This document shows positions 1 to 64,000 of a DNA stretch of 64,000 bases, piece after piece. The translations under genes were made by a program, and so were the position numbers. The stretch spans positions 1,488,001-1,552,000 of the forward strand of contig OZ017752.1 in the NCBI GenBank assembly GCA_963969365.1, given 5' to 3'. The notes under the pieces are model-generated. The model was not told where the DNA came from and ran no database searches. It worked only from the letters and a program-made list of their open reading frames with translations. Each line of letters starts with the position of its first letter. Positions within the stretch are counted from its first letter, which is position 1. The DNA comes from Asterochloris sp. CNOR1 (lineage: Eukaryota; Chlorophyta; Trebouxiophyceae; Trebouxiales; Trebouxiaceae).

Positions 1-199
1 GCAGAGTCTGGCAGCCCTTTTGGCCTGCTGGCAGCGCATCTTGGCTGGCTGCATTCACAGATGGAGCCAGCGCAGCTGCCGCCTGCATGATGGAACACTG
101 CCAGGTCCTGCTGACATGCCACTGTGTGACCCTGTGGCCGTGTCATTTGGAGGCCACTGGTCCCCTGAAGGGAGTCCTGCCAGCGGCCAGTGCGCATGA

Positions 200-3100
200 T
201 CAGGCAGGGTGCGCACCTTCAGCAACCTGCAGGGCATGGACTGCATGTGCCTTGGCTGGGCTGCTGCTGGCGCTGCCTGCAGGGCTGCCCGCTGCCAGCT
301 CCCCATCCCCAATCATGGGCTGCACGCTAGCAGCGTCCACAGGAGGCCGTGAGGCTGAGATGGCTTCATGGGCTGTGGGAGACTGGGGAGGGTCGCCGAT
401 GGCCAGGCTGGGGTGCCGCGCACTGAGCACCTGGGACTGCTGCACTGATATGTGGAGGGCGTCAAACAGCTGGCGCAGCAGGGTGCGCAGAGCGCCCTCC
501 ACAAAAGCGGGGCCCTGGTCGATGGTCTCTGTGTAGCCGTACCTGCAGGAGGGATTGGGCGGGGCTGCCCAACGTCACAGCCTGCTGCAAAAGCTGAGCA
601 GCAATGCGGGGCCAGCTGACTTGGCATGGTGTGCTCTCCTAAAGCCTGGCACTCCTGTTGCAGATTATCTATGCACATGCCAGCAGAGCATGCAACAGGT
701 TAAAGCTGACAAGTGCTGCACCATGAGCTCCCTGCAGGCCTTTCCTGAGCGCTGCCCTGGCCTCAAAGTCTGCCAGGCCAGGCACTTAGTGCCTGCCACT
801 CTGCAACACTCGTCATCAAGGCCCAGCACTGTCAAGCCGACTGAGTCCATTGGCCTGCAGATGGCGCAACAGGTTTCCTCCAGCTCCTCGATGATCGGCG
901 CCAACATGTGTCAAGCACTGAATGCCTGCCAACCTGCAGATGGCGTGGTAGAAGCCCGGAACCTCCAGCTGCTCAATCAGCAAGCGCTCCTTGTCTCCCA
1001 CAGTGGGCACAGGCACTGATCTGTTAGTCATCAGGATGTTGAGTTCGTGCAGGACGGGGAACTTCTGGAGGTGCTGTACCAGCACGGGTGGGACGCCGTA
1101 GATCGTCTCGGAGTAGTATAGGCAGATGCCCATGGTGATGCTGATCTGCAGGCACGTCAGCACAGCTACTCAGACCGCTGCCCGCTCAATGTTTTCAGGA
1201 CTGTAGCCGCAGCTTGCGTTCCCCAGGCAGAGGGCGGTGGCCACTGAGCTTGCTCTGCAGGCAGCAGGCTACAAGGGTCCTGAGCTCTGGGGTGCTGCTG
1301 TGGCCACTGCAGAGGATTTGAGCTTGGCATGCCTGCTGCAGGCTCCACAGCCTGGCCAAGGTGGAGACTGCAGAGTGTTGGAAAGGATCTGCACAGTGGT
1401 GGCCACCGGCGGGGCCTGGTCAACTCCCTTGAAATTATCCTCCGCAGAGGATTGGTTCAATGCAGAACCTCTGCACTGCTGGGGCCTTGCCGGCTCGTCC
1501 ATTGCTGAACGTAGCTGCTGTCTGCCAGGATGGGGGCCGGCACCTGGCGGGCCTCGGGACCTCGACCCTGATGATATGCGGGAATCTGAACGATGCCATG
1601 CGCAGGGTGTCTGAGCAGCTGAGGCGCTCACCGGTTCATCTGTGTCACCCAGTAGAAGCTGGTCCTTGCCGTCCCGGGTCTTGCTCTCCTTGACCAGGTC
1701 ACCCAGCTTCTTGATGGTGGGGTACCACTGCGTCTCAAAGAAGCGCAACTTCTGGGTGCTGCCCCAGAACCACAGCAGCATGATGGACCCATCTGCAGGT
1801 GCAAGGACCAGTTCAAAGAGCACAGCAGGATGCAGCAGCATCATGGAATCATCTGCAGTCCCAAGCAATTCTAAGTCATGCAGCAGTGCAGACATATGAG
1901 CATGCAGTTCTGGGTCTAGCCAGAGGTCACCCATCCCAGCAGAGAGGCAACCATCATGGTTAGCGAGGCTTGCAGGTCAGCAGCACAGCCGCATGGTGGA
2001 CGCATCTGCAGTTGTTATGTGCTGCACTTGCAGGGCAGGAAGCCAGCATGCAGAGAAGGGCCTGGAAGGAGGCTTGAGGGCATACTGACAGCATCAAGGT
2101 GGGACATTAGAAGGCACCAGGGGGATTGTGCAGCCATCCCACTCACATATCACAGCCATCATGATGGAAAACCAGCCACCTGCAGCAGACAGGTCAGTTT
2201 GGGAGTGCTGTTCCCTGTGCTGAATTCGTGCATCAACCAACGCAAGGCAGCATATAGCCTTTGGCACCGCTGGCTAGTGTGTGCAGGCCATCGCTGCCAG
2301 ACTGTGCAGCTCAGAAAGCGGGTCAACGCACTGTTAGCCCTTGTGGCAGTGTGCCGCCTCACCAGAGGGAACCTTCTCAACGCAGGCCGAGAAGTACAGG
2401 GCATCAATGGTGGCGAACACAAAGTAAAACAGCGCTGACAGGAAGATGTTGGTGTGCCAAACTGTAATCATGACCAGGGCCATGAAGTGAGCGGTGAGCA
2501 GCATGTCCCACACCACGGCCAGTCCTGTAGGCAGCAAGTACAGGGAAGGTGGAGCATGCGTGCAACTCCTGGCAGGGCCTTCTTCACCAACAAAGGTGAC
2601 TGCTGGACCTGTGCCATTGCAATCAGCAGCAGCTTGGCAGCTGCCTACAGACTAAGCAGCATGAAGGCCCCCAGCAGCACAGGTGAGCAACTATATGTAG
2701 CTCACATACGACTCATTTTGTTGAAGGCTATACTGCTGCTGCTATGACACCAACGTCACAGCCGTCACAGCTCACCATAGGCCTGCCCCATGTGTTCTGA
2801 GGACTGGAAGGTGCCTACCACCACCAGAGTCAATGCCATGACTACATAGTTGACCACTGGAATGTACACCTGCCCAAACACCTGCAGCAGCACATGCAAA
2901 AGTGGCTACCTGCTGCTCCTGACAGCTGTGATGCCTGTCAATCCCTTCCAGGGGAGGCTGTAGCAGCTGCCGCCATGCATGGTTCCTTGACTTGGAAGGG
3001 AGGATCTACAACTGAAAGGCCCAGGAGGGCCTTACTCACTGTGTTGGAGGTGTGGGTGATGTGGAAGCGTGGGAAGAAGCCCTGCGAGATGGCCTGGAAG

Positions 3101-6632: not shown

Positions 6633-9600
6633 TCAGAGGCCATGCAAGGCTGATATCTCCGCCTGCATCTGCCTCTTCTGCTCTGCCTTCCGTGCCAACA
6701 GATACTGCTCCTTGGGGTCCACAATTTCACTCACAGCAAAGGTCTTTGCCTGCAGACCATAACAACAGACTGTGCATCATATCCAGCAGCAACTGTGGGT
6801 GCCCGAGCTGCATGCTTGTGCTGACTGACCTTCCTTGGTGACTGTGCTGGGCTCTTGATGCCATTCTGCATTTGCGTGAAAGTCTCATCTTCACGTGGCT
6901 GCTCGGAGGCGTACTGTTGCACATGCCTCGTAGCTCCCTGGACTGCCTGCATGTGAAGCAGAGCCACACTGTGTGCATCTCAGTTGAGGCAAACATGCCG
7001 CTTTGTGTCCAAGCAGATCCAGTCCAGCTTGCCTGCGGCTTGCACAAGGCCTTCTTCTTGCCGCTACCGTTTCTGGGCTGAGCTCCAGCTGTTGCTGGCC
7101 TGACAGGGTGCTGCCTGGCTGAATGCTCTGGCTGTAGACGGGCACCTGCATCATCATCAGCAGCTCCCAATGCTGTTCACTCTTCACTCAGTGGCTCAGG
7201 ATGCCTTCATCAGTGCCAACCTTAAGTGCACGCTGAGGTTGATTGCTGCAGGCTGCTACTTGAGTGGGCTGCTCAGCGTGGATGCCAGTTTACTGGTTGC
7301 ATCATCTGCTGCATGGCTGGTCTGCACCACCCAAGGCTGTGCGGCTTCTTTCAACAGCTGGATCTGCGCACTACAAGCCCAGAGCCCCACATAAGCAACA
7401 GAGCGAACAAGACAGGGCCAACAAACTGCAAAGGGCACTTGGCCGGCTCACCATCCGAAGACCGGCGCCCTGGGTACCCACTCACACTGCGCATGCTGGG
7501 CAGGCTGCCCAGGCTGGCCTCAGTGATTGCCTGTATCCTGCGGCTGCGCGCTGCGTCCAGAGCTGCAGCCTGCTGCAGACCCGTCTGCTCCAGCTGTAAC
7601 AGCTCCGGCGGCAGCTCAAACTTGCCAGATTGCTGCACCTTCTCAAACCCCTCCTGCAGCACAGGGTGCTGGAGTGCGGCAGGCTGCACACTGTCAGGCA
7701 GGGTGGTTGACAGCAGCCCTAACTGCAGTGCAGAGCAGTGCAGGGAGACCAGCAGGCGCCAGCTGGGGACATCAGGTAGAGCTGTCAAGCTGTCTCATAT
7801 TGCGTGAGAGATCTCACAGCCAGGGCATTAGCTGCCCCAGCTGGGCCTGCCCTGATTGCTGCGTGAGCCTTGCCTTGAGCATGGCCTCCTGCTGCTGGAT
7901 GTCCTTCTTTATGCGCTGCATTTCTGCTAACAGAGCGCTGCGGGAGGCCTCAATGGCCTCCACCCGCCGCGCCTTCTCTTCTGTGCGGCGCCGCATGGCC
8001 GCCCGCTCCACCTCATCGTGCTGCGCCTGCAAGTGTGGAGAGGGACGGCACATGAGCATGTCTGCCCCTTGGCACAAATATAGGGTCGGCGACACAAAAT
8101 GTGGCACTCATGGCCGCAGCGGCACAACTGGCTGCACAGAACATGACATCACATGGCTGAGCAGATGACACGCTGCAATTAAAGGGCGCAGCCACTTCTG
8201 CAGGCAGGTGGGTCGTGCCCGTTTTGCCCCGCTGCAGCACACACTTCAGACCACCCTTTCAGGCTGGCGAGGTAGCAGCGACTCGCTGGATGACAGGTAG
8301 CTGGACGCTTGGTGCAGGCTCATTGCAGCCTCTCAGGCCAGTGGCTTTTACAACCGTGCAGGCAGGCAACCAAGCATCAGCACCTCGAAGCTGCTGCAGG
8401 GAGCCAGCACAGTGTTAAGACAAGCGGAGCTGCCACAAACAGCTTGAGGCCGCGGGCAACACTGCTACCTTGATCTCCATGCGTTTGTGGGTGTACTCAT
8501 GGCGCAGCTGTGCCTCTGCTGCCCGAGCCTGCCTGGCAGCCTCGTTCTCCTGGGCTACGCGCTGCAGCTTCAGGTCGGCCGCAGTGCTCTTCCTCTGCAG
8601 AAGCATGGGCAGCATGCTTTGTCTCGACCCCAGTCTAGACTGAAGGACTGCACAAGCTGAAGTCATTGCACGCCGAATGCAGAAGGACTTGCACGGTCTG
8701 AAGACGCTGGACATAGCCTGCGGCTTGGTCCAACACCCTCTGGCGCCCTGAAACAGCTGCGTCACAGTTGCTGCTATGTGTCAACATCAAGCATGACCAG
8801 GACTGCAGGCCAGGCACATTCAATGCCCACTGACAGTGTTGCCAGCCCACACCTGCACCACAATCGTCAGCATGCGGAAGTACAGCACTCGCTGCTGCGC
8901 TTTCTGAGGCAACAGCCCCATCTCATGCCCTGTTGCCGCCTGATGACCTCTGAAACTCCTCAGGGCACCTGAGCCAGTCGAATACTTGTGCTCCCATCCA
9001 GAAGTACTGCAGCAGGCCAGATCTGCAGCCCTGGCTGACCCTCCACCTCGAAGCAACATGATGTGCCCTACTCACTCCTGCCCAAGGATGCTGGAGCAGT
9101 ACTACCTCAGGGGATCTTTTGCAGCCAACCCTTTGCAGGTCCCCTGTCACTCAGAAGTCTGTGATGCGCTGCTGCTACCTCTGTCGCACCCACCTCACCT
9201 CCTGCACTGCTGCCACTGCATGGCACTCACAAACCCTTGAAACAGGAGGCAGGAGGCAGCAGTAAACTGCAATCTGGGCTGTAGCCCAAGTTTTCACCCC
9301 CTGGCTCGAGCCTCACCTATGAGGACACAATGCACTGCTGCGCCCATTGACTTTGTGAGCTGCTAACTACCGCTGCCTAAGACAACATGGTGCAATCCTT
9401 TGCAGCCATCCCTCTGCAGGCCCTTTCCCCTCACCTGGAAGTACATGATGCGCCGCTGCGCTTCCTGCTCCGCACGCCTCTGCGTGGCCCAAGCCTCCCG
9501 CATGCGCAGAGCACGCTCATCCGCCCGAGCAGCCTCGGCGGCTCGCCGCGCCTCGTCCACCTGCTGCAGGTGCTCTGCTGCCTGGCGCTCCTTGGCCTGC

Positions 9601-12639: not shown

Positions 12640-15613
12640 ATGGTCGGAGATGGAGCCCTCGGCGGCAGCAGTGAACATGCTGCCACAGCACCTGAGAAGG
12701 TGGACTTGCGCAGCTTGCTGGCCTCCTCAGTACCTTCCCTGTGCTGTACTGGCCCCGTGCAGCTTCATCCTGCTCAGACAATTTGCATCAGAGGTGCCAA
12801 GCCTGTACATGACATCATCATGTGCACTCGGAGGTTAGCTTGCAAGGACAGCTTCTTGGCCCTGCTAAGCATCAACAGATGTTCTCTTCGTCCCTGTGCA
12901 GGTGTGCATCCAGTGTGGCACCACGAAAACACCAATGTGGCGGAACTCGCCCCAGGGCCCAAAGACAATGTGCAATGCCTGCGGCGTGAAGCTGCAGCGT
13001 GCTCAGAACAAGCTGCGCGCCCAGGCTCTGGCGGCTGGAGAGCCCGAGCCAGTGTTTCCTGTGGCCATCGGCGCCCCACGGCACCGCAAGGCTGCCCCTG
13101 CGCCCCGTGTGGGGCACGGCGCTTCAGCCAACAGGGCAGCCGTGGGAACAGGTGCTGCCGGGCCTGTCACACGGCAGCGCCAGTCTGGCAAGGCTAGGGG
13201 CAGGACGCGAGCAGAAACAGCTGCCCCCCGGGAGGCTACACCTACGCCCGTGCCTGTGATGCAGTCAGTGGCCCCTGTTGGTGTGGCTGCTCATACAGCT
13301 GTGGCCCCTGCGCCGCTTGTGCCAGTCAGGGCGGAGCAGGCAGCGCCAGTCAAGGCCCCTGCAGTCATCTTTGCAGATGCCCCTGCCATCACGCGCACCT
13401 CCCTGGGGCCCCTGGCGGGCCTCAAGCGCAGCAGTTCGGCTGTGGGCTCTTCGGCCAGCGCTGCCAGTGTGGCTGTGGCTCTCAGCGAGGGCAACGCCCC
13501 CTCAGGCGCCGCCAGGCAGCGCCATGTCTCAACCAAACGCCCAAAGACCCAGGCCCAGCCTGCTCTGGAGACCTCAGAGGGGCCTCACCTGCAGCAGACG
13601 CGGCTGCACCACCACCAGCAGCAGGCGGCAGTCTGCCAGCTGCCGCAGCAGAAGCAGCAGCAGGGGTCTCTCATGCTATCCCCCTTTGCCGCTGCCACTG
13701 CACAGCGTCTCAGCAGCACCACCGTAACAAGGTTAGATCCCTCGCCGGCACCCACGCTGAGCCAGCTGGAGCTGCTTCTGCCCCGCGACGGCCAGCTGGC
13801 CCACAGTGGGCTGCCCCGGCGCACCTCAGGGGTGGCAGTGCGCGTGGTGTCGTCGGCAGGGGACTTGGGGCCCTACCAGGGCTCTGGTAAGGTGTTGGCC
13901 ATCTCCTCCAGCGAGGGGCAGGAGCTACTGAGCACAGCCTCGCCCAACGGGCGTTTCAGGTGGGGCATGTTGTGGAGCGGCTTGTTGGTGCGGCAGCATG
14001 CTTCTGCAGCTTGGCTCAATTGGTTCTAGTGGCTGTCTTCTGCTGGCCCTGCTCCAGTCTCTTAGCCTCTCCTGCTGGCTCGCACTGGATGCTTTGCTTT
14101 CTGTTTTCTTTTTCTGTTTATGCTTGGCCCCTGAACTGCTATGTGGTGACCGTGTACATCTTGTGCAGGTCGTCGCCCACGTCAGACATTGTCACCTGGA
14201 CACACGCTGAGGGCTGGACCCTGGTCTTCCCTTCTCAGGATGACTGGACTGTCTTTAAAGGTGAGTCGCCCCTGAGGCATAATCCAAACCTGCTGACAAT
14301 GGCTGCATCTCTGCTGGGTGCTGCACGATGCCGCCCAGCAGTGCCATGAGCTCTGCAGACACCTCACATGTTCTGCCTGCTGCTTGCCATCTGTGCGTCC
14401 TTATGTGGTCCACACTGGAATGCAGGCATTCTAGAGAGCCTGCTGCCCGAGGTTCAGCCTATGTTCAATTCCTGCCACAATCCCCATGCCAGCCTTTCTA
14501 GCAGCCTCAGCAGCAGCAATGTGCCTGGGACGCCATTTGGGGTGAGCCACCACTGTGGCTTGTTGGAACTTGGTGCTGATCTGTCCATTCTGCAGCTTGC
14601 TTCCTGCAAGGACTGGCGGCAGAGCAGCTCTGTAGTCTTAGTGTGGTGCCCCTGGCGCTTTGTCAGTATGACTCAATAGCTTGACATAAGGGTGTGGGCG
14701 TGTGGCTCAGATGTCGGCATGTTCGTGCAGGGCAGTGTAGCGGCTGGCGGCCCTGCCGGTGGCCTTGGGGACCTGCAGCCTGTGAAGGGGCGCTCGTCAC
14801 CTGACAGCCCACTGAGCAGCCTGAGAGTGGCTGCGCGCCATGGTGGAACTGCTCAGGCAGCCTCAAAACCCTGCGGCCCCTTAGCCAACCCACACAGCAA
14901 CACCTGGGGGCTGCCCCTCATGCCTAGCAGTAGCAGCCTGGGCATGCCCAGCACCCCGGGCGCGCACCCGGGCACAGTTCTGCGTGGGGCGTCCAGCGCA
15001 GCCCCTAGCCAGGCGCTTGGGCTGCAGCGGATTGCCCTGGGCATGGATGGCGATTTCGAGCTGGGCATGCAGCTGGGGCTGTTTGAGGCTGCCCCCGTGC
15101 CAGGCTGTGATCAGGTGAGATTGCTTGGGTGCATGCCATGAATCTTGGGCTCTGGTGGGCTGCATCTTTTGTGTCTCTGCCTTCACAGCGCACCTGAATG
15201 CCTGCTATCTTCCCTGCTGCCACGAGTGAGCTCTGTTCGCATGGTGTGCTGGCAGACACCTCATGGGCAGAGCACCCTTCAAAGCTGTCTGAACTCCGCC
15301 TGCTGTGCCATGTTGGCTGCATCCCATTGCTTGAGGTGCAGAGCAAGGTACCTGCACACCTGCTCCACTCTGTTTGGGCCTCCTGCAGGGTGATACGCTG
15401 GCAGGTGGGGCAATGCGCCAACGCAGCCCCAAGCTGGAGCCTGCTGCTGTGCTGCCAATGTTCAAGGCTGAGGAGAGCCTGATCTACAAGCACTCAGGCC
15501 TGCTCAACAGCAATGAGGCCCAGTTGATGCGCAGCGGGATAGGGCCAGCAGCATCCATGCTGGGGCCCCTTGATCAGGCCCACCCCCTGCAGGGATTACC
15601 TGTGGGGTGGTGA
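12640..15613 (+). CDS. GATA-type zinc-finger transcription factor, 6 exons, 644 aa
   Basis: Exons are 12640-12699, 12902-13959, 14169-14260, 14426-14541, 14731-15114 and 15389-15613; the sum is 1935 nt in frame. One GATA finger sits at the N-terminus: Cys22 and Cys25, then 18 residues, then Cys44 and Cys47, the CX2C-X18-CX2C spacing of plant GATA factors. It contains the TPMWR and [10 protein letters not shown] features that contact DNA, with a basic stretch after it. The remaining 590 residues are rich in Ala, Pro, Ser and Gln, with a His/Gln patch near residue 250, and are probably disordered. A short Trp-containing segment (residues of about 375-400) is the only other ordered-looking part. 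Target genes cannot be read from sequence. The start follows from phase and from a Met close to the finger; an extra 5' exon is possible. Confidence 0.9.
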
Positions 15614-16699
15614 CCCCTCAGTATTCATGCCATGATCTCTCAGTCAGGCCGGCCTGCACAGGGCTCTCTTAAGCATTGACATCCTCTAGACCACAGCAGC
15701 ACCTACACACCAAAGAGTATCTGCAAGACCTGCGTCAGATAGCGTCGCTCCCGCCGCCAGGCTAGTCCACTATATCCACCTGCACCAGCACCCGAGGAGG
15801 AGGGCCTCCTTACCAATCCACAATTGAGACAAGAGTGGCTGGCTTTCAGCCAGTGACACCAACTTTCTAATGCTGATCCCCAGGAACAGGATAGACCCTG
15901 ACCCAAGTAATTCCCTCTATTGCCTGTCTTTCCCCCATGTCTGCATTACGTCCCAGGCCCCTCACGCACCAGTCAGTCGTCTTTGGCAGCATGTGTGCCT
16001 CTTGTTGTACCACGTCAAGCACTGCAGATCCCCTTTGCTAAACAAATCGATAGATCAATGAGACCCATTTTTGTTTTTGAACGCCTCTGGAAGTGTGAGT
16101 GACCACATTGACTGCAGGTTTGCCTGTCCTGAAGAGGCGCCATCACCCTGCCTTGTGGTCAAAGGGATGGGTCACTGCAGCATGCAGGTTGGTAAGCGCC
16201 CTAAGCCCCTGCTGTAGAGCCTCTTTCAAGCACACCCAGGATGAAAGTTACACAACAGAAAATTTGCATTATCACAAGTGCAAAAATGATTTCACAGACA
16301 CGCTGAGATGGTGCTCCAGCAACATTTCAAGCTGTGGGCTGGCTGACCCCGTGGGAGCGTGAAATTGGTTGATTGGGCAGGCGCAGTCAGCACGGGGGAG
16401 CAGCCATTTTAAGCAGAGGTGAGACTTTCAAGCAGATGCAGCTGGAAGGGTTCATGAGCACAGTCAATCAACTTGTTTGCACAAGCTGTGTTGAGGTGCA
16501 TGTACATGACTAGGCAATACAGATACTTGTCCAATGCACTGAACATATGGTCTGCCCCTGGAATGCCAGCAGAAGACTGCTAGTCTGTAGGCAGGGCAAG
16601 CAGGGTTTGTTTGCGATCACTGCAGACAGCACAGCAAGACAACTCACGCAGCTGAGGCTGCCAGCCGCTGCCGTGCTTCTACATTACAGCCTCTGCTGC
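15614..16699. other. Intergenic region between GATA and kinase genes
   Basis: About 1.1 kb holding the GATA 3' UTR and the kinase promoter. It has AT-rich stretches near 16030-16110 and 16240-16310. I found no gene or repeat that I can support. Confidence 0.5.
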
Positions 16700-22600: not shown

Positions 22601-23352
22601 CTGCTGCATCACTGTGTGCATTTGTGTAGCGGGACAGCCTGGGGGGCTTGCCAGAGGGTGGACAAGCATCTGTTCCTGCAGCTGATGGGGTGTGGTCTGG
22701 GTGGACGTGTTGGTGCCCCCTGCCACCCGGTCTGTCAACGGCTCCTGTTTCCCACTTGTGTGTGTCCTTGCTTCCGTGACCTGCTTCACGTGCACTGGGA
22801 CACATTGAGGTGCTGTCTGCGGCTGGGATCAGAACAAAGTGTGCTCACCAGCAGATGGCTGTCCCTGCGGCTGTCTCTTCAATGAGTTGGTGTGCTCACA
22901 CCAGGCTCACTGTGACCCCTGCAGGTGTCCCCCTCAAGGCCTGGTTCTGTGACATTGAGGGCGACGATCAGGATGAAAAGGTGCTCAAGGCCAAGGATAG
23001 CAGAATCCCCTGTGGCATGTTTGAGCGTAGCGATGGAGCCCTGCACATCCTCAGGGTCAGGGGCGTCAGGTGGGCTGTTGCACAGTGATGTGGGTCAATA
23101 GTCTGACCAGGCATCAAGTGCTCTGGAGAACTTGCCTGTGTTTCCATAGAACCCTGTTTGGTGCTGCTGGACAGTGCTCTGGATGCTAGCAGTTGTGCCT
23201 GCTGCAGGGCACGGGCTTGGTTCAACCCTCACAATCCTGGCTTGACGGCTGCGGAGGTGCTCACAAGCCCCTTTTTTAAGCCCTGTTATGAGCAAGACTG
23301 GGCTGCTGGCCTTCGTGCCGGTCCCTCCAAGCTGCCGGATTGGAAGCCTTGA
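16700..23352 (+). CDS. Divergent protein kinase with a DYG motif and a long insert, 14 exons, 626 aa
   Basis: Exons are 16700-16999, 17428-17487, 17739-17811, 17957-17991, 18151-18241, 18747-18926, 19569-19738, 20121-20298, 20997-21147, 21487-21521, 21796-21953, 22325-22484, 22925-23069 and 23208-23352; phases agree. A disordered N-terminus of about 100 residues precedes a kinase fold. Visible landmarks are a glycine loop (LGAG, residues 115-118), a VAIK-like Lys at 140, a helix C Glu near 154, a catalytic loop HHSDMRLCNVM with Asp237 and Asn242, DYG at 418-420, and a closing LTAAEVLTSPFF segment. About 166 low-complexity residues lie between the catalytic loop and DYG, where most kinases have about 15. 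The key catalytic residues are present, so activity is plausible. I cannot name the subfamily; haspin-like or another atypical group is possible. A start at 16709 is equally possible. Confidence 0.82.
20258..20485 (+). repeat. Duplicated exon 3' edge in a kinase intron
   Basis: The end of exon 8 and its donor (about 20258-20300) recur about 170 bp downstream at about 20435-20480. Both copies encode a segment ending in PQVSAFA. In the second copy the GT of the donor is lost (GCAGAT instead of GCAGGT), so it cannot act as the same splice site. Confidence 0.75.
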
Positions 23353-32765: not shown

Positions 32766-38153
<5,388 letters not shown>

Positions 38154-50600: not shown

Positions 50601-53403
50601 TGCAGCCACCTGCACAGCGCAAGTTGCAGGCAGACTGATGGACAATGGAATGTTGAGGCACATGTCTGTCAGTCTTGCCGTCTGGTATGCCACAGTGCAG
50701 TTGGGGGAGGAGGCAGATGTATGATACTATGCCAACGCCCTGATGGTCACGTGGCGGCTGATGCTCATGCGCCCGGAAGGTGATGGAGGAGCACCCTGCA
50801 TCTGCACTGTGCCAGCAGATTGGTGGCACAGCAGGCTGAGGCCAGCTCTGGAATGGAGCACAAGGCACCTGGGGCCGACCCAAGGCGGCTGCTGACCCAG
50901 GGAGAGGCACCTGGGTGCATGCAGGGTCACCCTGCCCCCGGCCAGCAAGACGGGGGAGAGCCCCGTGCTGAGTCTCTGGCGCAGACAGGCTTCAGCTAAC
51001 CTCCAGCTCCAGCTGGGTGCATCTCTCAACAACATGGGCAGCCTCAGCAGCTACAGCATCCTCTGGGATGGCAAAGACCTCCTCCCGCGCCGCAAGCAGG
51101 GCCCTCTGCTGCGCAGCCAGGCGCCCGGTGTACAGGGCCAGCAGGCCAGCCGCTCCCCGGCGCTTGAAGTCGCGAACACTCCTGAAGAGGCTAGCAGCCT
51201 GCAGGGGCATGGAAGATGGCATCAGCTCCTCTGGCATAGCTGACATGTAGCTCAAGTGCCTGACAGGTGTCTCATGTCTGTCCAACACTCCTCCATCACT
51301 CACCAGCCACTGCTCCTGCGGCATGAGGGGGTGCGCTGCAAACTCCAGCTGACCGACTGCGATGTCCAGGCGGAAAGCCTGCCGGATGCTACCCCCGAGG
51401 TTGCTGGCACTGGAGGGTACCAGCACCGTGTGCAGGTGCTGGGGCAGCGGCTGCAGAGGCCGATAGATGCGCTGTCGCAGGTCCTGCATCAAGCAGCTTG
51501 CTGGGAGGCACATGAGTGCATGCACATACTGCTTGCTGTAAGGCCTTTCTGCTGCACACAATGCAACGGACTGCTGCACTGACTCGTGCAGCAGGGCTTT
51601 CCGCTCAGGGTCTGCAGACTGCCAGATTGGACAGTGCATTTGCCACTGCTTGCCCTCATCTGCTCACCACTGTTGCATTAGTGGGAAGGCTAAGCAAGCC
51701 ATCAGCGTCCAGCCACTCAGCGCCTGCCTGACCTGCAGGGCGGCCAGCCAAGGGTTTAGGCTTGCATACGCGTTGCACAAAGGCCTCAAAGACTGACTGC
51801 TGGCTAGCCCAGAATAAGTAGCAACCTGCATGAGCCGAGGAACCTGTGCTGGACGCTGTGCATGTGAGCTGTGCATGTAGGGGGATCATGAAGATGAATT
51901 GGGTACACAGCAACAGCTCTGTGCATTGGTGGTCAGACCAACACAGTCCAAGAGGGCCCAAACCTGCTGACTGCCACAGGGTCCAGCTGCCAGGCAGGGC
52001 CATTTTGCTGATTGCCAAAAGCAGCAGCCGAACACCAGACCCTGTCTGCTTGCTGCCTTCACAAAGAAAAAGCGAGCAGGAGCGCCCATCTGCTTGCTGA
52101 TCGATAACCAGCAGTCAAGCAAGGCCCACACCTGCAGTCTGCTGAGGCAACCAGCAGCAAAGCGAGGCCCACACCTGCAGTCTGCTGAGGCAACCAGCAG
52201 CAAAGCAAGGCCCCTACCTGCTTGCTGCTCCTTGGAGGCTGCTGCCAGGCGCTGCTCCAGCTTGTTGAGCTGGCCTGCAGGGACTCCAGCTGGCTTCATG
52301 TCCACATACAGGCCCCATTGCTCTGCTGAATTCTGACCCTGGCTTTGAGCTGCCTGTCGGGCAGGCGTCGGGCGGGGGCAGCCTAGGGCTGTCGCCTCAA
52401 AGCGCAGCTGCTGCGCCAACTGGTCTGTTACAGAGGGGCCCTGCAAGCAAACATCAGCAGAGTCTTGCAGCTCCATTCCTGGCCTACAAGCTGGTCTTGA
52501 CACGGATCAAGGCTTCCATCAGCATCAGCTCCAGATCGTTTAAAAGGCGATTGCACACCACACAACATGGGTACGAGGCCAGGGCTCTGAGAAGGGCTTC
52601 ACCTGCTGTGGGCGACCTCTGACCAGCAGGGCAGCTGCTGGCGGGCAAGCCTCTCCTTCATCCAGCCTGCCTTTGCCGCCCTCGGCCCGGGGAGTTGCAT
52701 CTGTGCGCTCGTCTGCCTGCCTGGACTGCGGCGAGCCCCAGATCCGCTCAAAGACTGACTCGCCGCGGGAGAGGCCGCTGGGTGCAGGGCCAGCTGGGCT
52801 GGTCCTGCAGTGTGGCAGAGTCCGTACAGTTGGACCATGTGTGCATGGCTGATGTGTGCATGGCTGATGTGTGCATGTGCATGTGTCCTGCTTGGCCAAT
52901 GACTCTCAGTGGTCTGAACACCAGCTTCACTGATGTACGGGCGGGCCTGCATGCCAGCGTTCTTTGCCGGCATGCAGAAAATTGCCACGCTCTCTGGAAT
53001 GATCTCAAAGGCTGACCTTGTGTCCTCAAAACTACCGCGGGTGATGCCGGCACCTGAGGTGGCTGCCTGCTGGGATACTTGCAGAAGGCGGGCCTGGTCG
53101 TCAGATGGGCTGCCAGCAGTGTTGGCATCTGCAGCAGGGTCTGCATGATAACAGGGAGTCAGGCCTGCAATGTGGAATGTGAAAACGAGCCCAGATCTCA
53201 CCATGCAGGGCTTGGTAGCCCCACAGAGGCCTGAAGAATCGCTGAATGAAGGTGTCGCTTCGGAGGGGCTTTCCTGTTGTATTGGCCTGCTCGTTTTGCT
53301 GGTTGGCAGAGTCTGCAACCAAGGGAGCACCTGCCACAACAAAGGGTTGTTCAGGGGCATGCAGGCTTTCGGTCCTGAACCTCAGCTTCTTTGAAGTGCT
53401 CAT
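38609..53403 (-). CDS. CC2D2A: CC2D2A-type ciliary transition-zone protein, 31 exons, 1935 aa
   Basis: CC2D2A is a scaffold of the MKS module at the base of cilia. Exons are 53202-53403, 52939-53140, 52603-52804, 52218-52440, 51668-51825, 51304-51483, 51001-51198, 50430-50609, 49786-50016, 48984-49091, 48480-48763, 48046-48236, 47684-47832, 47139-47280, 46716-46838, 46257-46449, 46022-46055, 45748-45981, 45343-45603, 44905-45068, 44245-44398, 43349-43533, 42564-42803, 42210-42383, 41753-41876, 41245-41416, 40542-40720, 40074-40234, 39651-39795, 38996-39352 and 38609-38866 (5808 nt). Diagnostic segments are QDQGFSLT (about 490), a first C2-like domain from about 690 with RWPQSLQLKLYE, IDPNDPSN (about 850), LRPRRKQ, a second C2 domain from about 1170 with LWNEHFVLPY and LVLNVFDE, PEEHAQLL then YVVLGTS, the YNGSNLWAN transglutaminase-like region, and a C-terminal TGVH block. 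It is longer than the human protein (about 1620 aa). The N-terminal exons and the 34-nt exon are the least certain. Confidence 0.9.
40461..40475. repeat. 15-base G homopolymer
   Basis: Fifteen consecutive G residues lie on the plus strand in a CC2D2A intron, with shorter G runs on both sides. The region could form a G-quadruplex and is prone to sequencing error, so its length is unreliable. Confidence 0.9.
43349..43860. repeat. Copy of a CC2D2A exon 5' edge in the preceding intron
   Basis: The start of the exon at 43349-43533 (plus-strand segment about 43480-43540) recurs in the intron at about 43785-43850, about 300 bp away in the same orientation. Both share a GAGGCCT(C/G)CACCAGCTCATC block and GAGCACCA. 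The intron copy has lost the CTGCAG acceptor. Confidence 0.7.
44757..45015. repeat. Tandem duplication of a CC2D2A exon end
   Basis: About 110-120 bp at 44898-45010, covering the donor and 3' half of the exon at 44905-45068, is matched by 44757-44870, about 140 bp away. Both contain ACACCCACC(C/T)TACATCAGG next to the donor and a CAGCAGGGCTGCCTG block. The copy has an in-frame stop. Confidence 0.8.
49355..49830. repeat. Three decayed copies of a CC2D2A exon 3' edge
   Basis: The donor-side part of the exon at 49786-50016 encodes ADEQDE followed by GTGTGC. Related segments encode ADRQDE plus GTTTGC at about 49430-49475 and EHEQAE plus GTATGC at about 49610-49660. Each is flanked by matching CAGCTTGTC(C/T)TGCA-type sequence, giving a period of roughly 160-180 bp in one intron. 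Confidence 0.7.
52105..52235. repeat. Tandem 45-bp repeat of a CC2D2A splice-donor edge
   Basis: Directly beside the donor of the exon at 52218-52440 are near-identical units of about 45 bp, each containing CCACACCTGCAGTCTGCTGAGG on the plus strand or a variant. Read on the coding strand, each unit is an exon-like end in GCAG followed by GTGTGGGCCT or GTAGGGGCCT. A partial fourth unit lies near 52085-52110, and another donor-like match near 51940-51965. Confidence 0.85.
52835..52882. repeat. Short tandem repeat of about 15 bp
   Basis: About three copies of CATGGCTGATGTGTG lie in tandem in a CC2D2A intron. It is a minisatellite-like repeat with no coding role that I can support. Confidence 0.8.
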
Positions 53404-56700: not shown

Positions 56701-59700
56701 TGTGGCCAGCCTGGTCCTTAAGGCACTGCAAGCACCGCATATGCACACAGGGTGACTAGCTGGAGTTGCTTTACCTGGGGCGTGGCATATGGTTGGGCCT
56801 GCCAAAACTGGTCCCAGCTGCCTCTGTGCAATGTGCACTGCAGAGGCTGGTCAGGCATGCCAAGACAGGATGCTTCTGCACTTCAAGCGGTGGAAGGCAC
56901 TGCATGGTCTGCCTGCCCAGAAGGCGTGTCATCCCTGCGCTGCAGAGGCTGGTCTGCCCCGCTGAGGAGGATCTCTGTGCATTTGCTGTGCAGATGGAAT
57001 TACAGATCTTGCTGTCCACCAAGTCTAGAGTTTCAGTCATTTTGTTGGGATTGTGCCGCAGAGGCTGGTGAGCCACGCAGAGGAGGTGGCCTACAACGAC
57101 CCCCCTTCGGGGGCTGCAGAGCAGCTTATTCTCAACTCCCACCTCTACCGTCTGCTGCGCCACAACAAGCTGTCGGCCTTCCAGCGATTTGTGCAGCAGG
57201 TGAGCCTGTGATGAGAGTGCCTGCCTTGTCGCTGCTGGTTGCTGGCACTACAACAGGTGAGCAGGTGCTGAGGGGCCATACCCTGTACTTGCTGGCCTGT
57301 ACTCATGATGGGGCTGTGCAAGAGGTGCATGTTCTGCTCCTGGCTGGCATTGTGGGTAGCAGGTGTTCCTGTGTGGGTAGCAGGTGTTCCTGTGTGGGTA
57401 GCAGGTGTTCCTGTGCTGGTGTCCCCCCTGCATTGCCAGAATTCAGTTCCTCCACAGACCTGACAGAGCTTGCGTGTCTGGCCACAGGTGGCAGATGGCT
57501 ACGCCACAAAATGTGAGTGTTCCAGCTGCATGTGCTGCCAGGCTCCTTGCAGAGTTGAGCTCTCGATCTGCTGCTGCATTGCTGCTTTGTGGGAGTGCGT
57601 CAAACACAGCCTCAAACACAGCCTTAAACACAGCCTGCTGGAGCATTGGCTGCTCACCTAAAACTGCCCCTGCTGTAGCGCTTGCTTCTCACTTACAAAT
57701 GCCCCTGTTGCAGACCTGGCATCGGTGGTGGCTCTTTTAGTATATGCTGTCCCCATCTACTTGAAGGACCCGTCCCAGCGGGGTTCACAGGCCGATATAA
57801 CCCAGGTAGGTTGCGCCATGGGGAGCTGCCTGGCGTCTGTCTGGAGGCTGTGGGCTGCCCAGGCCTGCTGTCTTCTGGCATGATTGCGTACCACAATTGC
57901 AGATCTGGGGCAAACACACTGCTCGTGCAAAGGAAACGCTGCGACATCGCGTCATTCACGCATCTGCATAGGCAGATTGCATTCAGGGTGCTGCCTACAC
58001 TGCAGGACTACATCAGATCCATGAGGTTGCTTCAGAACACCTCCAGGTGAGGAGTTTGCATGGCAATATGCTGTATCTGCCAAAACTGTAGCTGGGTATT
58101 CAGATCGCTGTGTTGGTAGTGACGCAGTGTGTGCCTGCAGGGGTGTTGGTGACTTGGTGCTGGTGTACAAGCGCGTGACAGGTGAGCACACTGCCAGCTG
58201 TAGGTCAGCAGCGGCGCCTGCTGCGGATGTGCTGGATGAGGCAGACCCCTGACCCAAAGCGCTGGCCTCTGCGCCTGATCTTGCCTGCCTCCTGCTGCCT
58301 GCCTGCTCCAAGCGTGGGTCCAGCATCTGCATCATCAAGCTGCAGGGCTTGTGGGCACCAATGTATGTCTCAACATCTGCTTTGCAATCATTAGCAAGTA
58401 CACTGCTGGCCCTCTGCAAGCTGGCAGGTGCCCCAGCCACATGGCTGAGCTGCTGGTGCGCACTGGAGGCACTACTGTTGTCGGCCCCTCCTCCTGGCCC
58501 TCAATAATACCTGTGCACGCCTAGGAGCGCCTGGCTCAGTGTCTTCATTTTGTGCTTGTCTGGCACAGGTCTGATCCTTTGTGCCTGCTTGCTGCAGGGC
58601 TGGAGACGCGCACCACTTGCGTAGCCAGTGGGGTGCACGATCAATACCCCTTGCCCGCCGACACCCTGTGCCTGCCTGCTACAGGGCTGGCAAGGCACGC
58701 CACCCACATGACTGAGACGCTAGAGCCAAAATGAAGGAGTATTATCATTCCTCTTTATGACGGCCCATTCAGACAGGCCTGCTCACCCCCAGCAGTCGCC
58801 TGGTTGCAGTGGACTGCTTGTTTTACTATTGGTACAGGCATGATCCCTCAGTGGCTGCCTGCTGCAGGTCTGGCAGGGCACACTAGCCGTGTGGCCGAGC
58901 TGCTGGAGCAGGTGCAGAAGCTGAGCGTGGGGGATATCATCGCCACCCACCGCGACCTGTACCTCCGCAATGTGAGCAGCTGCGAGCTGAGTGCAGACGC
59001 CGACATACCTGAGCCTGAGAGGCACGAGGGGGAGGTTGTCAAATTTGACAGGTGGGCAGTCACTAGAGACACAAGCTGTTGCAGGGCTTGACACAAAGCT
59101 GCTGAGCGGGCACCATGCAGACTTGCTCAAGCCTGTGCACCAGGAAGGCAGGTTGTCAACAGGTGGGCACTCAGCCTGGACGACTGTGTGAGTTACATTG
59201 GCATGCAGTGTCTGTTGGGACAGGTGCCTTCATACTACAGTTTGGACGTGTGCACTGCAGTTGGCCTGCCTGCGGTGCAGACTCAATACACTGTGCACTA
59301 TCCTGTCTTTGCTTATATGTTGCCCTGACTTGGACTGTGCAAGTGCAAGAGGCCATCAGGGCATGCTGTGCGTCCAGATCGAGCAGGCTGAGATGCAAAA
59401 GATGTGAACCAAGACTAGAGGATCCAGAGCACGTCATCCATGTGGACAGCTGCATGGCAGGGGCTGGACTGGCCTGACATGGCTGCTGGCCGCTGCATTG
59501 TGGCCCTCAATGTGCAGCTGCATGGCGCAGTGAAGCTGCCTGATGCACTTGTTGGCTGCTACAGGGTGGCGCTGAATGCTCCAGACGGCACACCCCTGGT
59601 TCGCGACCTGACCTTCCAGGTCAACCGTGGGGAGTCTGTGATGATCATGGGGCCCAACGGCAGCGGCAAGAGTTCCCTCTTTCGTGTGCTAGCAGGGCTG

Positions 59701-62328
59701 TGGCCGCTGCTGGTGAGGCGCCCTGTATCGGCTGCTGCTACCTTGCAGTTGCCTCATTTCTTGTGTGCTGGCGAGGCTGTAGCCGCTGCTGTTGAGGCGC
59801 CGTGTGTTAGCTGCTGCTGGCTGGCAGTTGCCTCCTTTCTTGGGTGCTGGCGGGCTGTGGGCGCTGCAGATAGGCAGTTGCAGACTCAACCCATGGCAGT
59901 GCTCCTGTTTACAGACAGATTGCAGCTGTCTATGCCTGAGGGAGACAGACAGCTGTGCAGGTGCTGCATGAGCACACAACTGCATGAGCACACAGCCACA
60001 TGGGGGGCGGAGAGGTCAATGTGCCGATGAGGCAGGTTCGCGATGCATGCGTTGGCGTGGCGCCAATGGCGGCTGCTTGGACGCATGTGAGCACCGCCCA
60101 GGTGCCAGCAGGGCCACAAACCCATCTGCAACTGCAGGGTGGTGAAGTGACGTACCCTGGCCAGGGGCGCATGTTCTACCTGTCGCAGAAGCCCTACCTG
60201 GTGGCGGGGTCACTACGGGACCAGCTACTGTACCCGCAGCCGCCACGGGCAGTGTGGGCGACCACTGGCAAGGCCACCCGTGAAAGGTGGGGCTTCATGC
60301 TGCTGAAGGTATGTGGCGCCTCCTTCGGCATGGTGGCTAAACCCTGCCCCGCTGCATCATCTGGCCTGCTGCCAGACCAGCTGCTGTACCCCCCGCAGTG
60401 TGGGCATCAATTGGCAGGCCACCTGGTTGGGCTTCCCACTGTCGTGCACTGCTATTTGCTTCTGTCCTGATGAGCATGAAGCAGCTAGGTGGTACCGAAA
60501 GCGCTGTCACATCAATTGGTACACACTCAGCCGCCGCAGGCAGTGTGGGCATGCACACACAAAGCGACTCCCCAGAAGTAAGCTTGCCAGGTGCTGCAGA
60601 CAGGCCTGGCAGTGCCAGCTGAGCTGCATGGTGGAGCTGAGCCACCTTGAACCCCAGCAGCTGCTGCACTGTCATGGAGTGCAGCAACACACTCTGAGTG
60701 TCCATGGCATTGCGCTCAACACGCGGCGCTTGCTGGTGCTGTTGCAGCTGCAGTACCTGTGTCGCTGTTGTTGTTGGAGCTGTGTTTGGCTTGACCATGG
60801 TCCGTGCCCTACACCTGTACAGCAAAAGGGGCCAGGATGGAAACTGATCAAATGGAAGACGTGGCTTCGGAAGTGACCCTGCCTCATCTGCATTGGCAGG
60901 CTGCCGTGAAGGTCCACACGGCATGGACAGGCAATCGCTAAAATTAGACGATGTCTCCATGCTGCTGGGTGCTGCTTTGGACCCCCACCCCAGGGGGGAT
61001 AGGCATGGTGGCCAGAACAGACCAGCCCTGCACTGCACTTGGTCCCCTGCCCCAGCAAGTTGGTCAATCTCGGGCCCATGCGCTGCAGGTTTGCGCACCT
61101 GCCTGGCGTTTGGATGAGCCGTGCTGTGATGGAGGAGCGGCTGGAAGAGTGCCTGTCAGCCGTGGAGCTGGACCACCTTCTGGGCAGGTAAGGGCAGGTG
61201 CCGAGCGCTTCATTCCTTGCCAACAGTCCTGCCTGTAAGATCTGGAGCTGCATCACTCTCTGCACCCTTCAAGCAGTTGCGGCTGGCAGTGGTCATGCGT
61301 TCTGCTGGGGCTTCCACAGCTGCCAGCTGGGGAGCTGCAATGCTGGGAGGCGCATTGAGCAGCAGTGTTCAATGTTTAGCCAGCAGTGGTCCTGCTCAGG
61401 AGGGCTTGTGCGGCCTGTGGGGCAGTAGGGTGCTGTCAGCAGTGCGAATTCTTTGTGTAGTGGCACTGCCTGTGGAGGCCATGGTGCTCACATGGGGGCA
61501 GCTACAGCCTGAGGGAGTGCTGCCTGCATCAGTTGGCTAGAGCATGGCCGGTAGACAGGCCAGCAGGACTCCTTCCTGTGCTGCGCAATCACAAGCTGGC
61601 AATTGCGCCAGGTGCCTGCATGCTCCTGCGGGCACTGCATCATGACGTGGCTGGTCTGGCGCCCAGCCTGTGTCGCTGCCTGGTGCAGGGGTAAGGGCTG
61701 GGACCAGGTGCAGAACTGGGAGGACACCCTCTCTGGAGGGGAGAAGCAGCGCCTGGCAATGGCGCGGCTGCTCTTCTTCTGCTCTCCCAACCCAGCGGAA
61801 CCCAACAGGTTCCACTACGCCATCCTGGACGAGTGCACCTCCGCGGTGGGTGCTGGCTTGCCTCTGCAACCAAAGATGGTGGCTGCTCATGTGTGCAGGG
61901 CCAGCATGCTGCATGTGTGCAAGTGGCTTGTGCACCTGAGCTCTGCCCTCTCCTGCAGAAGAATGACTGCACGATGGAGGCTGCATCAAGCTTGAGATGT
62001 TATGCCAAGGACTAGAGGCTCTTGTGCCATGCCAGAGTGCATTCCAGACAAGTTGACCAGAAAGTTGAGGATATGAATACCAGCAGGTTCCCTGCCATAC
62101 TGTCCCCCCAGCAGAACGTCAATGTATCCAGGATCTCATATAGGCTCAGCAACTGCACAAGTGCAGGTTAGCGTCGATGGCGAGGTCAAGCTGATGGAGG
62201 CCTGTGTGCAGCAGGGCATCACTCTGCTGTCCATTGCGCACCGGCCAGCTCTGAAGCGCTTCCATCAGAAAATCATCCACTTCGATGGCAGCCAAACAGG
62301 CAATGGATGGCACATGGAGCAGCTCTAG
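53724..62328 (+). CDS. ABCD: Peroxisomal ABC transporter, subfamily D half-transporter, 17 exons, 673 aa
   Basis: ABCD proteins import very-long-chain fatty acids or their CoA esters into peroxisomes. Exons are 53724-53953, 54799-54931, 55263-55420, 55685-55735, 55963-56026, 56380-56562, 57062-57199, 57488-57512, 57714-57805, 58006-58046, 58141-58181, 58868-59051, 59565-59712, 60138-60253, 61089-61187, 61689-61845 and 62167-62328; phases agree and the sum is 2022 nt. Hydrophobic segments fill residues of about 10-330. The family landmarks [15 protein letters not shown] and ITEDVEKF are present. The nucleotide-binding domain has Walker [10 protein letters not shown] (476-484), [17 protein letters not shown] (582-589), Walker [11 protein letters not shown] and the switch SIAHRP. 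It is half-size, so it must dimerise. An odd 10-residue insert rich in Pro and Asn (599-608) precedes Walker B. Exon 8 is 25 nt. The start is the Met at 53724; 53670 is an in-frame alternative. Confidence 0.94.
54689..54860 (+). repeat. Copy of ABCD exon 2 in the preceding intron
   Basis: The start of exon 2 (about 54805-54860) is matched by 54689-54745 upstream. Both share GGGCTCCTCTCA followed by TGAGAGG or CGTGAGG and then GGCGTC. The intron copy is diverged and lacks the acceptor. Confidence 0.6.
56839..57090 (+). repeat. Three copies of the ABCD exon 7 acceptor edge
   Basis: The acceptor and first codons of exon 7 (GCAG then AGGCTGGTGAGCC at about 57055-57075) recur at about 56840-56865 and 56940-56970, at about 100-bp spacing. 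All three keep GCAGAGGCTGGT; downstream similarity (GAGGAGGTGG against GAGGAGGATC) continues for about 20 bp. The unspliced copies still have intact AG dinucleotides. Confidence 0.8.
57354..57416 (+). repeat. 21-bp tandem repeat, three copies
   Basis: A 21-bp unit, GGGTAGCAGGTGTTCCTGTGT, is repeated three times with little divergence in the intron after ABCD exon 7. Each unit contains CAG followed by GTGTTC, resembling an exon end plus donor. Confidence 0.9.
58415..58930 (+). repeat. Several copies of the ABCD exon 12 acceptor edge
   Basis: The true edge lies at about 58855-58915 (CTGCAG then GTCTGGCAGGGCAC). Related segments occur at about 58415-58465, 58593-58625 and 58680-58725. The 58593 copy also shares about 35 bp of upstream intron (an ACAGG, TGATCC and TGCCTGC order), so the duplicated unit spans the junction. 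Confidence 0.75.
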
Positions 62329-63167
62329 AGGCTCCCAGCGGAGCGCATGCCGGTCCGTCACTCTATCTTGCGTCTGTGTGTGGCACTAGAACTCATGCTG
62401 TGGTTGTATGTGTGTGTGTGATGCACTGACAGTACTGCAATTTGTGTTGAAGCTGTGTTCAACACAGATCAAGGCTTTCAAGCTCAGGTCAATTCAGACA
62501 CTTCTTACATGTCAAACGCCCTCTCCGCCAGACACCTGACGCCATGCCCAGGAGGAGGACAGCTCAGCACCTAACAAGGACAGAGCATTGAATGGATGTG
62601 CAGTTTCTCCAGACCTGGCTCTGCTTGCAGACTGGGACTTTGCGTTGAACAGAGCTTCAACAGAACAGTGCAGTGAAAGTTCAGCAGAACTGAGAGTTGA
62701 CAGACGACCAGACTGACTGAGAGACCTGTCTACGGCTGGGCCGGCATGTTGGGACCCACAGACTTTGTTGGTGTCCATAGCAGCTAGACAGGGTCTGTAG
62801 AGCCTATTCAGAGCTGAGATTGCTGAAGCAAGTAAACCTTGCAGTCCAAATCTCAACATGCAATGTCCTGCAGGATTACCTGCACCTTGCTGACATCAGA
62901 CTTGCTAGCTAGCAAGTGCAGGTCTTCATTTGGCAAAGGCTAGATCCTGATGCTGAAATCGGTGGGTCAAGTCCTTATTTCGAAGACGTGGAGGCTCCTA
63001 AGAGAGCTGCTGTGCTGTGTTCCCTTGCTGGAGGGGCTGCAGCGTCCAGCAGAGCTATCTTGCTGCCCTCACGCATTGCCCAGGGGCCTGAGCCCTGCAT
63101 CAGGGAATGCAAGGATGGGTCGAGGCGGATGCATGAAGCACTCAGGCAGAACCATCCTAGCAGAAGG
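62329..63167. other. Convergent intergenic region
   Basis: About 840 bp between the ABCD stop (+) and the stop of the partial minus-strand gene. It contains a short TG repeat near 62405-62420. No gene is supported. Confidence 0.5.
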
Positions 63168-64000
63168 CTAGTGCTTGAGAATGTGCAGCATCAGCAGCCT
63201 GTCCATCACCAGACGCAAAAGTACCAGACACGCCAGGAACAGCTGGTGGATCTTGCGACATCAGGCTTCATGCTTTGATATACAAATGCCCAGTCAACAG
63301 GGCAGAAGCTCCAGCTCAGCCTAACCCTCTGTTGTGACGCCACGGGAGATGCTGGCACCACAATGGTGCCCACCTGGCCTTGCAGCAGGGCAGCCTGCGA
63401 GCTGGCGCTGCTGCCAGGGTTCCCCCGACCAATGCAGCTGTCATCAAAACTGCCGGGCTTGTAAGCTGATGCCAGCGGGTTGCGCCGCCATTGCAGGTCT
63501 GCCACATCATGGGTCAGGCGGCGCCGAAGGTGGCCGCCTGGCGGAAGACCGTTGCCTGTTGTGGACCCCAGTTCCAGCCCCTGCTGGCCTTGCTGGTGAG
63601 GCTGGCCCTGTACAGCAACTGGTCTGGGGTGGCAGCCTGCTTGGCACCAGGCACTCGGCAGCAAGCCACCAACTGGCAACAACCTGAGCTCAAGCACCCT
63701 GCCGGTCTGGCTGGTGAGACTCCTGACACAATCAGCAGGGCATCAAAGCCTGCACAAGCTGCATGCCAAGAGTGCATGCCAAGAGTGCTGACATATCTTG
63801 CCACTGCAGGGACAAGGCAGCGCCTTCACGCAGCTCACCCTGGAGCCCATGAGATTGAGGCTGTGCATGAAGCGCCCAGCTCTGTCCCCAACATTGCCCA
63901 GCATCTGCCCAGCCGCCGTGCCCAGAGCACCCAGGCTGGGGTGTGGCCTCAGTCGCATGTGCGTGGCTGCCTGCTCTGGTGGCGGTGGCTGTAGCCTAAA
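63168..64000 (-). CDS. Partial gene of unknown function with hydrophobic C-terminal tail
   Basis: The gene runs off the right edge, so its 5' end is missing. Likely exons are 63839-63935, 63567-63607, 63374-63498 and 63168-63251; the last three join in phase, while an exon or alternative boundary between the first two is unresolved. The readable protein includes an AGQMLGNVGDRAGRFMHSL segment, then DLQWRRNPLASAYKPGSFDD, a Ser/Ala-rich stretch, and a final 27 residues beginning IHQLFLACLVLLRLVMDR, which look like a tail-anchor or membrane helix ending close to the C-terminus. I recognise no family. Confidence 0.5.

Follow-up and report, generated by a model that had tools for sequence, protein, structure and literature searches.

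Decayed exon-edge copies in introns of the green alga Asterochloris sp. CNOR1 are probably old, short local duplications filtered by splicing and selection

Introduction

Introns in a stretch of the genome of the green alga Asterochloris sp. CNOR1 carry decayed copies of the exon edges that flank them, which raises the question of whether exon-intron junctions are a special target of duplication or are only the places where ordinary local duplication stays visible. The stretch, called the window here, comprises 64,000 nucleotides of contig OZ017752.1 (C7:1488001-1552000; GC = 58.6%) and belongs to a genome of 56.4 Mb in 21 contigs. An original prediction, made from the letters of the window, proposed that repeated tandem duplication of junctions lengthens introns in several genes, and that this process continues. 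Our analysis supports the copies themselves, and makes it probable that they arose by short local duplication without junction bias, most of it old, on which splicing and selection have acted as a filter.

Comparisons were made in 314 kb, consisting of the window, 200 kb of contig C1 and 50 kb of contig C5 (about 0.6% of the genome). Gene models came from a small hidden Markov model (HMM) gene finder trained on the 314 kb itself, and are predictions only. This gene finder returned 33 genes and 813 introns, with a raw median exon length of 79 bp, introns of a few hundred bases, and a predicted splice consensus of CAG/GTGAG at donors and a TGCAG/G core at acceptors (before the AG: T 88%, G 94%, C 98%). 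The raw models hold micro-exons and merged genes; dropping exons shorter than 25 bp left 610 introns, 567 of which are canonical and at least 50 bp long (the cleaned models). Raw labels were used for the random-shift crossing tests, the own-side null, the pair counts of the window, and the array and coverage tests; cleaned labels were used for the exon-edge tests, the decoy counts, the classes and ages of pairs, and the simulations. For comparison, excerpts of a report on Asterochloris glomerata (PMC6652019) give a genome of 56 Mb, on average 9 introns per gene, and a GC content of 56-62% across 98% of the nuclear genome.

Short same-strand duplications are frequent and local

The genome carries many short local duplications on the same strand, tandem at small offsets. 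Without recourse to gene models, 211 direct pairs are counted in ungapped alignment (score of at least 15, offset 20-619 bp), where four control distances give 8, 6, 5 and 4; a count in the window alone gave 50 ungapped local direct pairs, whereas five control distances yielded 2, 0, 0, 1 and 1, and inverted pairs numbered about 5. Gapped alignments (score of at least 18, offset 20-420 bp) number 277, against 27 and 14 at control distances of 1000 and 3000 bp, by which about 5-10% of the 277, as single weak pairs, may be due to chance. Summed over distances of 15-200 bp, 10-mer pairs amount to 1626 direct and 344 inverted, with a direct/inverted ratio of 3.1-8.5 over this range and about equal numbers at 1-2, 3-4 and 6-7 kb. 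The same scan of 50 kb of Escherichia coli gave no local excess (at a score of at least 18, no local pair, with 1 and 0 at the control distances). Detectable local pairs take up about 10% of the bases in predicted introns (raw labels), which supports the proposal that duplications have lengthened introns. As a separate observation, inverted 12-mer pairs rise above background at 250-350 bp (40 and 37 per bin, where longer distances predict about 8), which suggests a few inverted repeats.

The similarity is confined to neighboring sequence: pairs with a score of at least 20 number 92 per 100 offsets at 20-120 bp, 10 at 320-420 bp, 9 at 420-520 bp and 2-3 past 520 bp, and background is reached by 500-700 bp. 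This makes dispersed mobile introns (introners), reported in 5% of species in excerpts of PMC9860276, an exceedingly improbable supply of the repeated edges, as does the finding of almost nothing at the control distances, within the sampled contigs and the limited distances covered.

At small offsets the alignment spans at least 80% of the offset in 100% of pairs at 20-40 bp (n = 27), 87% at 40-60 bp (n = 30) and 90% at 60-80 bp (n = 20), as expected of tandem units. Beyond 120 bp most alignments span less than half of the offset (at least half in only 6-44%, depending on the bin), which leaves the tandem mechanism only presumed at these larger offsets and speaks for displaced copying during double-strand-break repair, by synthesis-dependent strand annealing or polymerase theta templated insertion, instead of head-to-tail duplication. 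Several matches of 15-49 bp reach an identity of at least 90% although their flanks are hardly or not at all similar; these point the same way, and local repair duplications that include splice sites are known in vertebrates according to excerpts of Pace et al. (2009; PMC2671141). Set against displaced copying are the strong same-strand bias of the 10-mer pairs, the nearly complete tandems formed by 20-80 bp units, and a flank similarity above control; we hold it to be a doubtful explanation, although one to be taken seriously.

Exon edges are copied into their own flanking introns

Introns were aligned with their flanking exons, with swapped exons as control. Forty exon bases at the donor edge match the adjacent intron (score of at least 16) in 19/531 cases, against 0.5 expected from swapped exons and 0 from the reverse complement, and the same length at the acceptor edge does so in 21/545 cases, against 0.2 and 0, bearing out the claim that both kinds of edge are affected. 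By comparison, exon sequence located 70-110 bp away from the edge has a match in the intron in 1/466 cases (0.4 expected), and the far exon edge matches the intron on the exon's other side in 0/452 at a score of at least 16. Decayed copies in the same orientation, with the splice site and both flanks, were recovered in adjacent introns of all six genes for which they had been described: KUP, a coiled-coil gene, a GATA/kinase model, ALT, a CC2D2A-like gene and ABCD. The clearest case is the KUP acceptor at 1792/1793 with its two intronic copies.

It had been conceded that such matches might reflect low complexity around CTGCAG. This hexamer is the acceptor core and is also frequent inside introns (predicted intron interiors, 187 kb in total, contain 498); it occurs 251 times in the 64 kb, about 12 times the expectation from base composition, and could thus feed chance similarity. 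Nevertheless, the swapped-exon and reverse-complement controls give 0-0.5 matches where 19 and 21 are observed, and inverted pairs, which the palindrome CTGCAG feeds equally, show no comparable excess. For the sample as a whole, low complexity around the hexamer is ruled out by these controls, and chance similarity in general is very improbable as a source of the matches.

Single-junction copies lie on the own-intron side in 84 cases and on the opposite side in 13 (raw models; null about 41:33), with 41 against 6 for acceptors and 43 against 7 for donors (null about 20.7:16.6 and 20.6:16.7, respectively); the cleaned models give 44:12 and 50:10, counts that carry no null. Placement on the own-intron side is what any junction-crossing tandem duplication must show, provided that the exon-proximal site is the one retained by splicing. 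Coverage by local pairs with a score of at least 15 peaks in the 20 exon bases beside the junction (7.4% on both sides; controls 0.06-0.12%), is about 3% at 20-40 bp into the intron and is back up to about 5-7% deeper. Exon edges match at a rate of 33/669 (4.9%) and intron-interior tiles at 32/1986 (1.6% raw, 1.4% net; 4.4 by chance), a 3.5-fold net ratio with an approximate 95% range of 2.1-5.9, and the edge-match rate drops steeply within about 40 bp of the exon edge.

Tandem exon duplication, in which the copies would be used alternative or mutually exclusive exons and not decayed decoys, would account for the 52/277 gapped pairs in which both copies touch a predicted exon. It is an improbable explanation of the whole, given that one copy lies wholly outside predicted exons in 130/277 pairs, that matches are rare for exon sequence 40-80 bp from the edge, and that, in a separate count of intronic copies, the splice dinucleotide is lost in 19/49 donor and 9/39 acceptor copies.

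Age of the copies and preference for junctions

The explanation that we favor as probable starts from short same-strand duplications with offsets of about 20-350 bp, which would be mostly of some age and would have arisen with no preference for splice junctions that can be demonstrated. Because exons are short and introns only a few hundred bases long, many of the duplications would straddle one exon edge, and these would survive only if splicing kept the exon-proximal site, so that the other edge copy would land in the same intron and lengthen it. Selection would hold the exon copy while the intronic copy decayed, and exon-intron pairs may thereby remain recognizable for about twice the time of intron-intron pairs. 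Since exon-intron pairs would be visible longer and the duplications are mostly old, exon edges would come to look singled out.

Copies do range from near-identical to barely recognizable, as was originally stated, with a skew toward old ones: only 13/89 intron-intron and 11/130 exon-intron pairs are at least 90% identical. Pair counts and ages were taken from contigs, because concatenated units that share an exon create false exon-exon and possibly double-counted exon-intron pairs; edge and interior rates were computed per unit and are hence untouched by this artifact. We compared these values with simulations of unbiased duplication in which exons were frozen and the rate was either constant or past its peak. 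At a constant rate, 27-51% of intron-intron pairs are at least 90% identical, and the scarcity of young copies in the alga thus speaks against a process continuing at the same pace. The edge/interior ratio, 3.1 in the real data, is 1.0-1.35 at a constant rate (about 0.85-1.35 in earlier full-acceptance runs), and reaches 1.7-4.3 in three past-peak runs with the peak before 0.15 substitutions per site and 3.3-7.4 in three with the peak before 0.20. Past-peak runs have 7-18% of intron pairs young, and their ratio of exon-intron to intron-intron pairs, 1.3-2.3, includes the real one (130:89 = 1.5), against 0.8-0.9 in constant runs. Constant-rate unbiased duplication was rejected by both the age spectrum and the edge/interior ratio. 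Given that past-peak unbiased runs reach the real ratio, the edge excess needs no junction targeting; in these models it could arise without it, while targeting combined with a past peak lay outside the simulations.

A rival explanation is that breaks or polymerase slippage favor exon-intron edges, for example when coupled to transcription or splicing. The exon-edge rate of about 3.5 times the intron interior is what such targeting would produce, and the crossing of junctions, with expectations taken from random shifts of the annotation, goes some way in the same direction: 72/211 ungapped pairs cross a junction, against 52.4 expected (standard deviation, SD, 8.2), and crossing is 1.2-1.5 times random placement overall and 1.6-1.9 times for acceptors in several ungapped cuts. 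This excess is seen in older pairs (129/209 gapped pairs below 80% identity, against 108.5 expected), where the selection argument predicts it because the exon copy is held and only one side decays. The young sets show none, although a modest excess could escape notice in samples of their size: 3/12 gapped pairs of at least 90% identity cross, against 3.6 expected, as do 13/35 of the strongest ungapped pairs (score of at least 25), against 13.8, and 6 of the 32 youngest tandem arrays (match of at least 85%) span one junction, against 6.2. None of these 32 arrays lies wholly in exons, against 4.9 expected. Constant-rate duplication boosted at junctions was also rejected, its age spectrum being too young (27-45% of intron-intron and 33-43% of exon-intron pairs of at least 90% identity). 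Junction-targeted duplication is therefore unlikely in our view, and the claim that junctions are a special target gives way to a plainer picture: junctions are not clearly singled out, and the pattern resembles local duplication of the ordinary kind as it appears once selection has acted.

Several results sit uneasily with unbiased, mostly old duplication. Acceptors are crossed by 50 ungapped pairs, against 31.1 expected (SD 6.5), and donors by 40, against 30.6; gapped pairs cross in 158/277 cases, against 127.7 (SD 9.0), and the 56 gapped pairs of 80-90% identity do so in 26 cases, against 15.7, with 23 at acceptors, against 9.5. The past-peak parameters were chosen by hand and not fitted, and two other past-peak settings gave edge/interior ratios of 3.1 and only 1.5. 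Young exon-intron pairs (11/130) are rarer than in the past-peak runs (10-18%). For exon sequence at a distance of 40-80 bp to the edge, the match rate is 0.3% in the real data and 2.5-8.5% in four simulations, so the real fall is steeper than unbiased duplication produces, which again favors targeting. The 52 pairs in which both copies touch an exon compare with 2-6 per simulation; they may be long exon copies that the predictor called exons, or real exon duplications. A past burst of short tandem duplication that preferentially hit exon-intron edges, acceptors above all, for instance through breaks coupled to transcription or splicing, would combine targeting with age, and we judge it quite unlikely; if true, it would make the duplication of junctions one of the chief ways in which introns grow longer in an intron-dense alga.

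Copied splice sites and intron gain

Copied splice sites had also been expected to influence splice choice. Among copied donors inside introns, 28/49 keep GT and 23 look strong, and among copied acceptors 29/39 keep AG and 25 look strong, so potential decoys do exist; the claim is nevertheless weak, as equally strong sites are abundant anyway in the interiors of the same 567 introns, with 2228 donor-like ones (3.9 per intron) and 1496 acceptor-like ones (2.6 per intron). The antisense strand of these interiors holds 2230 and 1659. No sense-strand excess of acceptor decoys is seen in introns, neither for TTGCAG (206 sense against 234 antisense, raw introns) nor for strong acceptor-like sites (per kb, 8.25 on the sense and 9.15 on the antisense strand).

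Rogers in 1989, Gao and Lynch in 2009 and Hellsten et al. in 2011 are said to have treated the gain of introns through tandem duplication of AGGT, and this route had been raised for the window. Across the 567 introns, donor and acceptor contexts show no in-register similarity: upstream-arm matches of at least 12 occur in 2 introns, against 1.8 expected, and downstream ones in 1, against 0.7. Donor and acceptor surroundings are no more alike than shuffled ones, and intron birth by this route was rejected. What the two processes share is tandem duplication interacting with splice sites (excerpts of PMC3443670 and PMC4974935), whereas no trace of AGGT intron gain is left in the introns compared here.

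Relation to known duplications

Short local duplications were reportedly described as "doublets" by Thomas et al. in 2004. The vertebrate cases, as presented in excerpts of Pace et al. (2009; PMC2671141), are likewise short, nearby duplicates, many of them intronic and some including splice sites, and in primates repair-mediated local duplication ran continuously with decreasing intensity; copies at most 50 bp apart were excluded there. The algal pattern differs in its strong same-strand bias, its contiguous small tandem units and its compact, intron-dense genome. In fly regulatory DNA, an autocorrelation that decays over about 70-100 bp has similarly been read as old local duplications, in regulatory modules and with no comparable evidence in yeast, according to excerpts of Nourmohammad and Lassig (2011; PMC3188502); here the duplications lie in introns and across exon edges of an alga that appears to be unicellular. 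A closer likeness at a single locus is the potato RdRp gene, where one tandem duplication straddles an acceptor junction and the splice signals were inherited (excerpts of Ma et al., 2016; PMC4974935). A new intron arose in that case, whereas here the copy was absorbed into an old intron, in many genes. As to mechanism, excerpts of PMC8355091 demonstrate a route to small tandem duplications through CST and polymerase alpha-primase at break ends, in mammalian cells in which overhangs of 43-50 bp had been induced.

The algal pattern belongs with these known short local duplications, including the cases at splice sites and intron-exon boundaries. In the open-licence literature we found no paper whose title or opening describes pervasive junction duplication, although coverage was partial and absence proves little. 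The sequence offers an intron-dense genome in which decayed exon-edge copies can be counted, and an example of how unbiased duplication and selection on exons may imitate a junction-directed process. If activity is indeed past its peak, it would also provide material for dating intron lengthening and for studies of the tolerance of splicing to duplicated sites.

Loci in the window

At a gapped score of at least 17 and offsets of 20-420 bp, the window holds 74 local pairs; in 57 of them at least one copy runs across a predicted exon edge, a share inflated by doubtful micro-exons of the raw models. Edge-spanning pairs make up 4/5 in KUP, 8/10 in the coiled-coil gene, 7/10 in GATA/kinase, 3/4 in ALT, 21/25 in CC2D2A, 14/19 in ABCD and 0/1 in FolD. 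The main loci are as follows (positions in the window).

1765-2014, minus strand: KUP, acceptor of exon 1632-1792 (1792/1793), with two decayed upstream-intron copies at about 1833-1898 and 1978-2014; CTGCAG in all
9022-9475, minus strand: coiled-coil gene, donor 9434/9435, copies at 9114-9189 and 9022-9081
18910-19065, plus strand: GATA/kinase, donor 18926, intronic copy at 19008-19065 with donor GT kept
22445-22744, plus strand: GATA/kinase, donor 22484, intronic copies at 22557-22614 (GT kept) and 22661-22744 (GT lost)
31198-32595, no strand assigned: larger FolD/ALT duplication, 31345-31489 against 32451-32595 (offset 1106), with a weaker match of 31198-31219 against 32253-32274
33134-33343, plus strand: ALT, donor 33154, copy at 33296-33343
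34176-34297, plus strand: ALT, tandem duplication lying wholly within an intron, 2.1 copies of a 58-bp unit
36728-36840, plus strand: ALT, donor 36749, copy at 36813-36840 with donor motif kept
44729-45016, minus strand: CC2D2A-like, donor 44904/44905, copy at 44729-44872
51908-52250, minus strand: CC2D2A-like, donor 52217/52218, within a 43-bp tandem array extending into the intron
57351-57419, plus strand: ABCD intron, near-identical 21-bp tandem array, among the few young examples; spans no predicted junction
57622-57723, plus strand: ABCD, acceptor 57713/57714, copy 35 bp upstream
58668-58909, plus strand: ABCD, acceptor 58867/58868, upstream copy at 58668-58726 with AG kept
59671-59875, plus strand: ABCD, donor 59712, within 2.3 tandem copies of a unit of about 79 bp; neither of the two aligned copies retains GT

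The larger duplication that had been assigned to FolD does exist, at an offset of about 1.1 kb, but it does not lie in FolD introns: its 145 bp (score 64) pair the FolD upstream region with the predicted first ALT intron, and the weaker match, of 22 bp (31198-31219), is to a FolD exon. FolD introns themselves hold no junction copy at a gapped score of at least 17 and offsets of 20-420 bp. Outside the window, one of the youngest junction cases lies in the C1 stretch (joined positions 157787-158016), where a 40-bp tandem array, its copies similar at 88-94% identity, comes directly after an exon end and its donor.

Pfam matches support the models of KUP (K_trans, E = 4.9e-159), FolD (both FolD domains, E = 2.2e-50 and 3.2e-41), ALT (aminotransferase, E = 3.3e-37) and ABCD (ABC_membrane_2, E = 1.9e-68). 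The kinase and CC2D2A labels stem from the earlier sequence-only prediction. In the "kinase" model, GATA (E = 1.4e-12) is the sole Pfam domain reported; this one model (12640-24269) fuses a GATA zinc-finger gene with the downstream region labeled kinase, and may represent two genes. Searches of the window against Rfam, and of 8 kb of it against plasmids, gave no match. Finally, the CC2D2A-like gene (38609-53403) has a CEP76 peptidase-like domain (E = 1.1e-14) and a C2 domain (E = 6.7e-05) in Pfam, a combination that suggests a flagellated stage.

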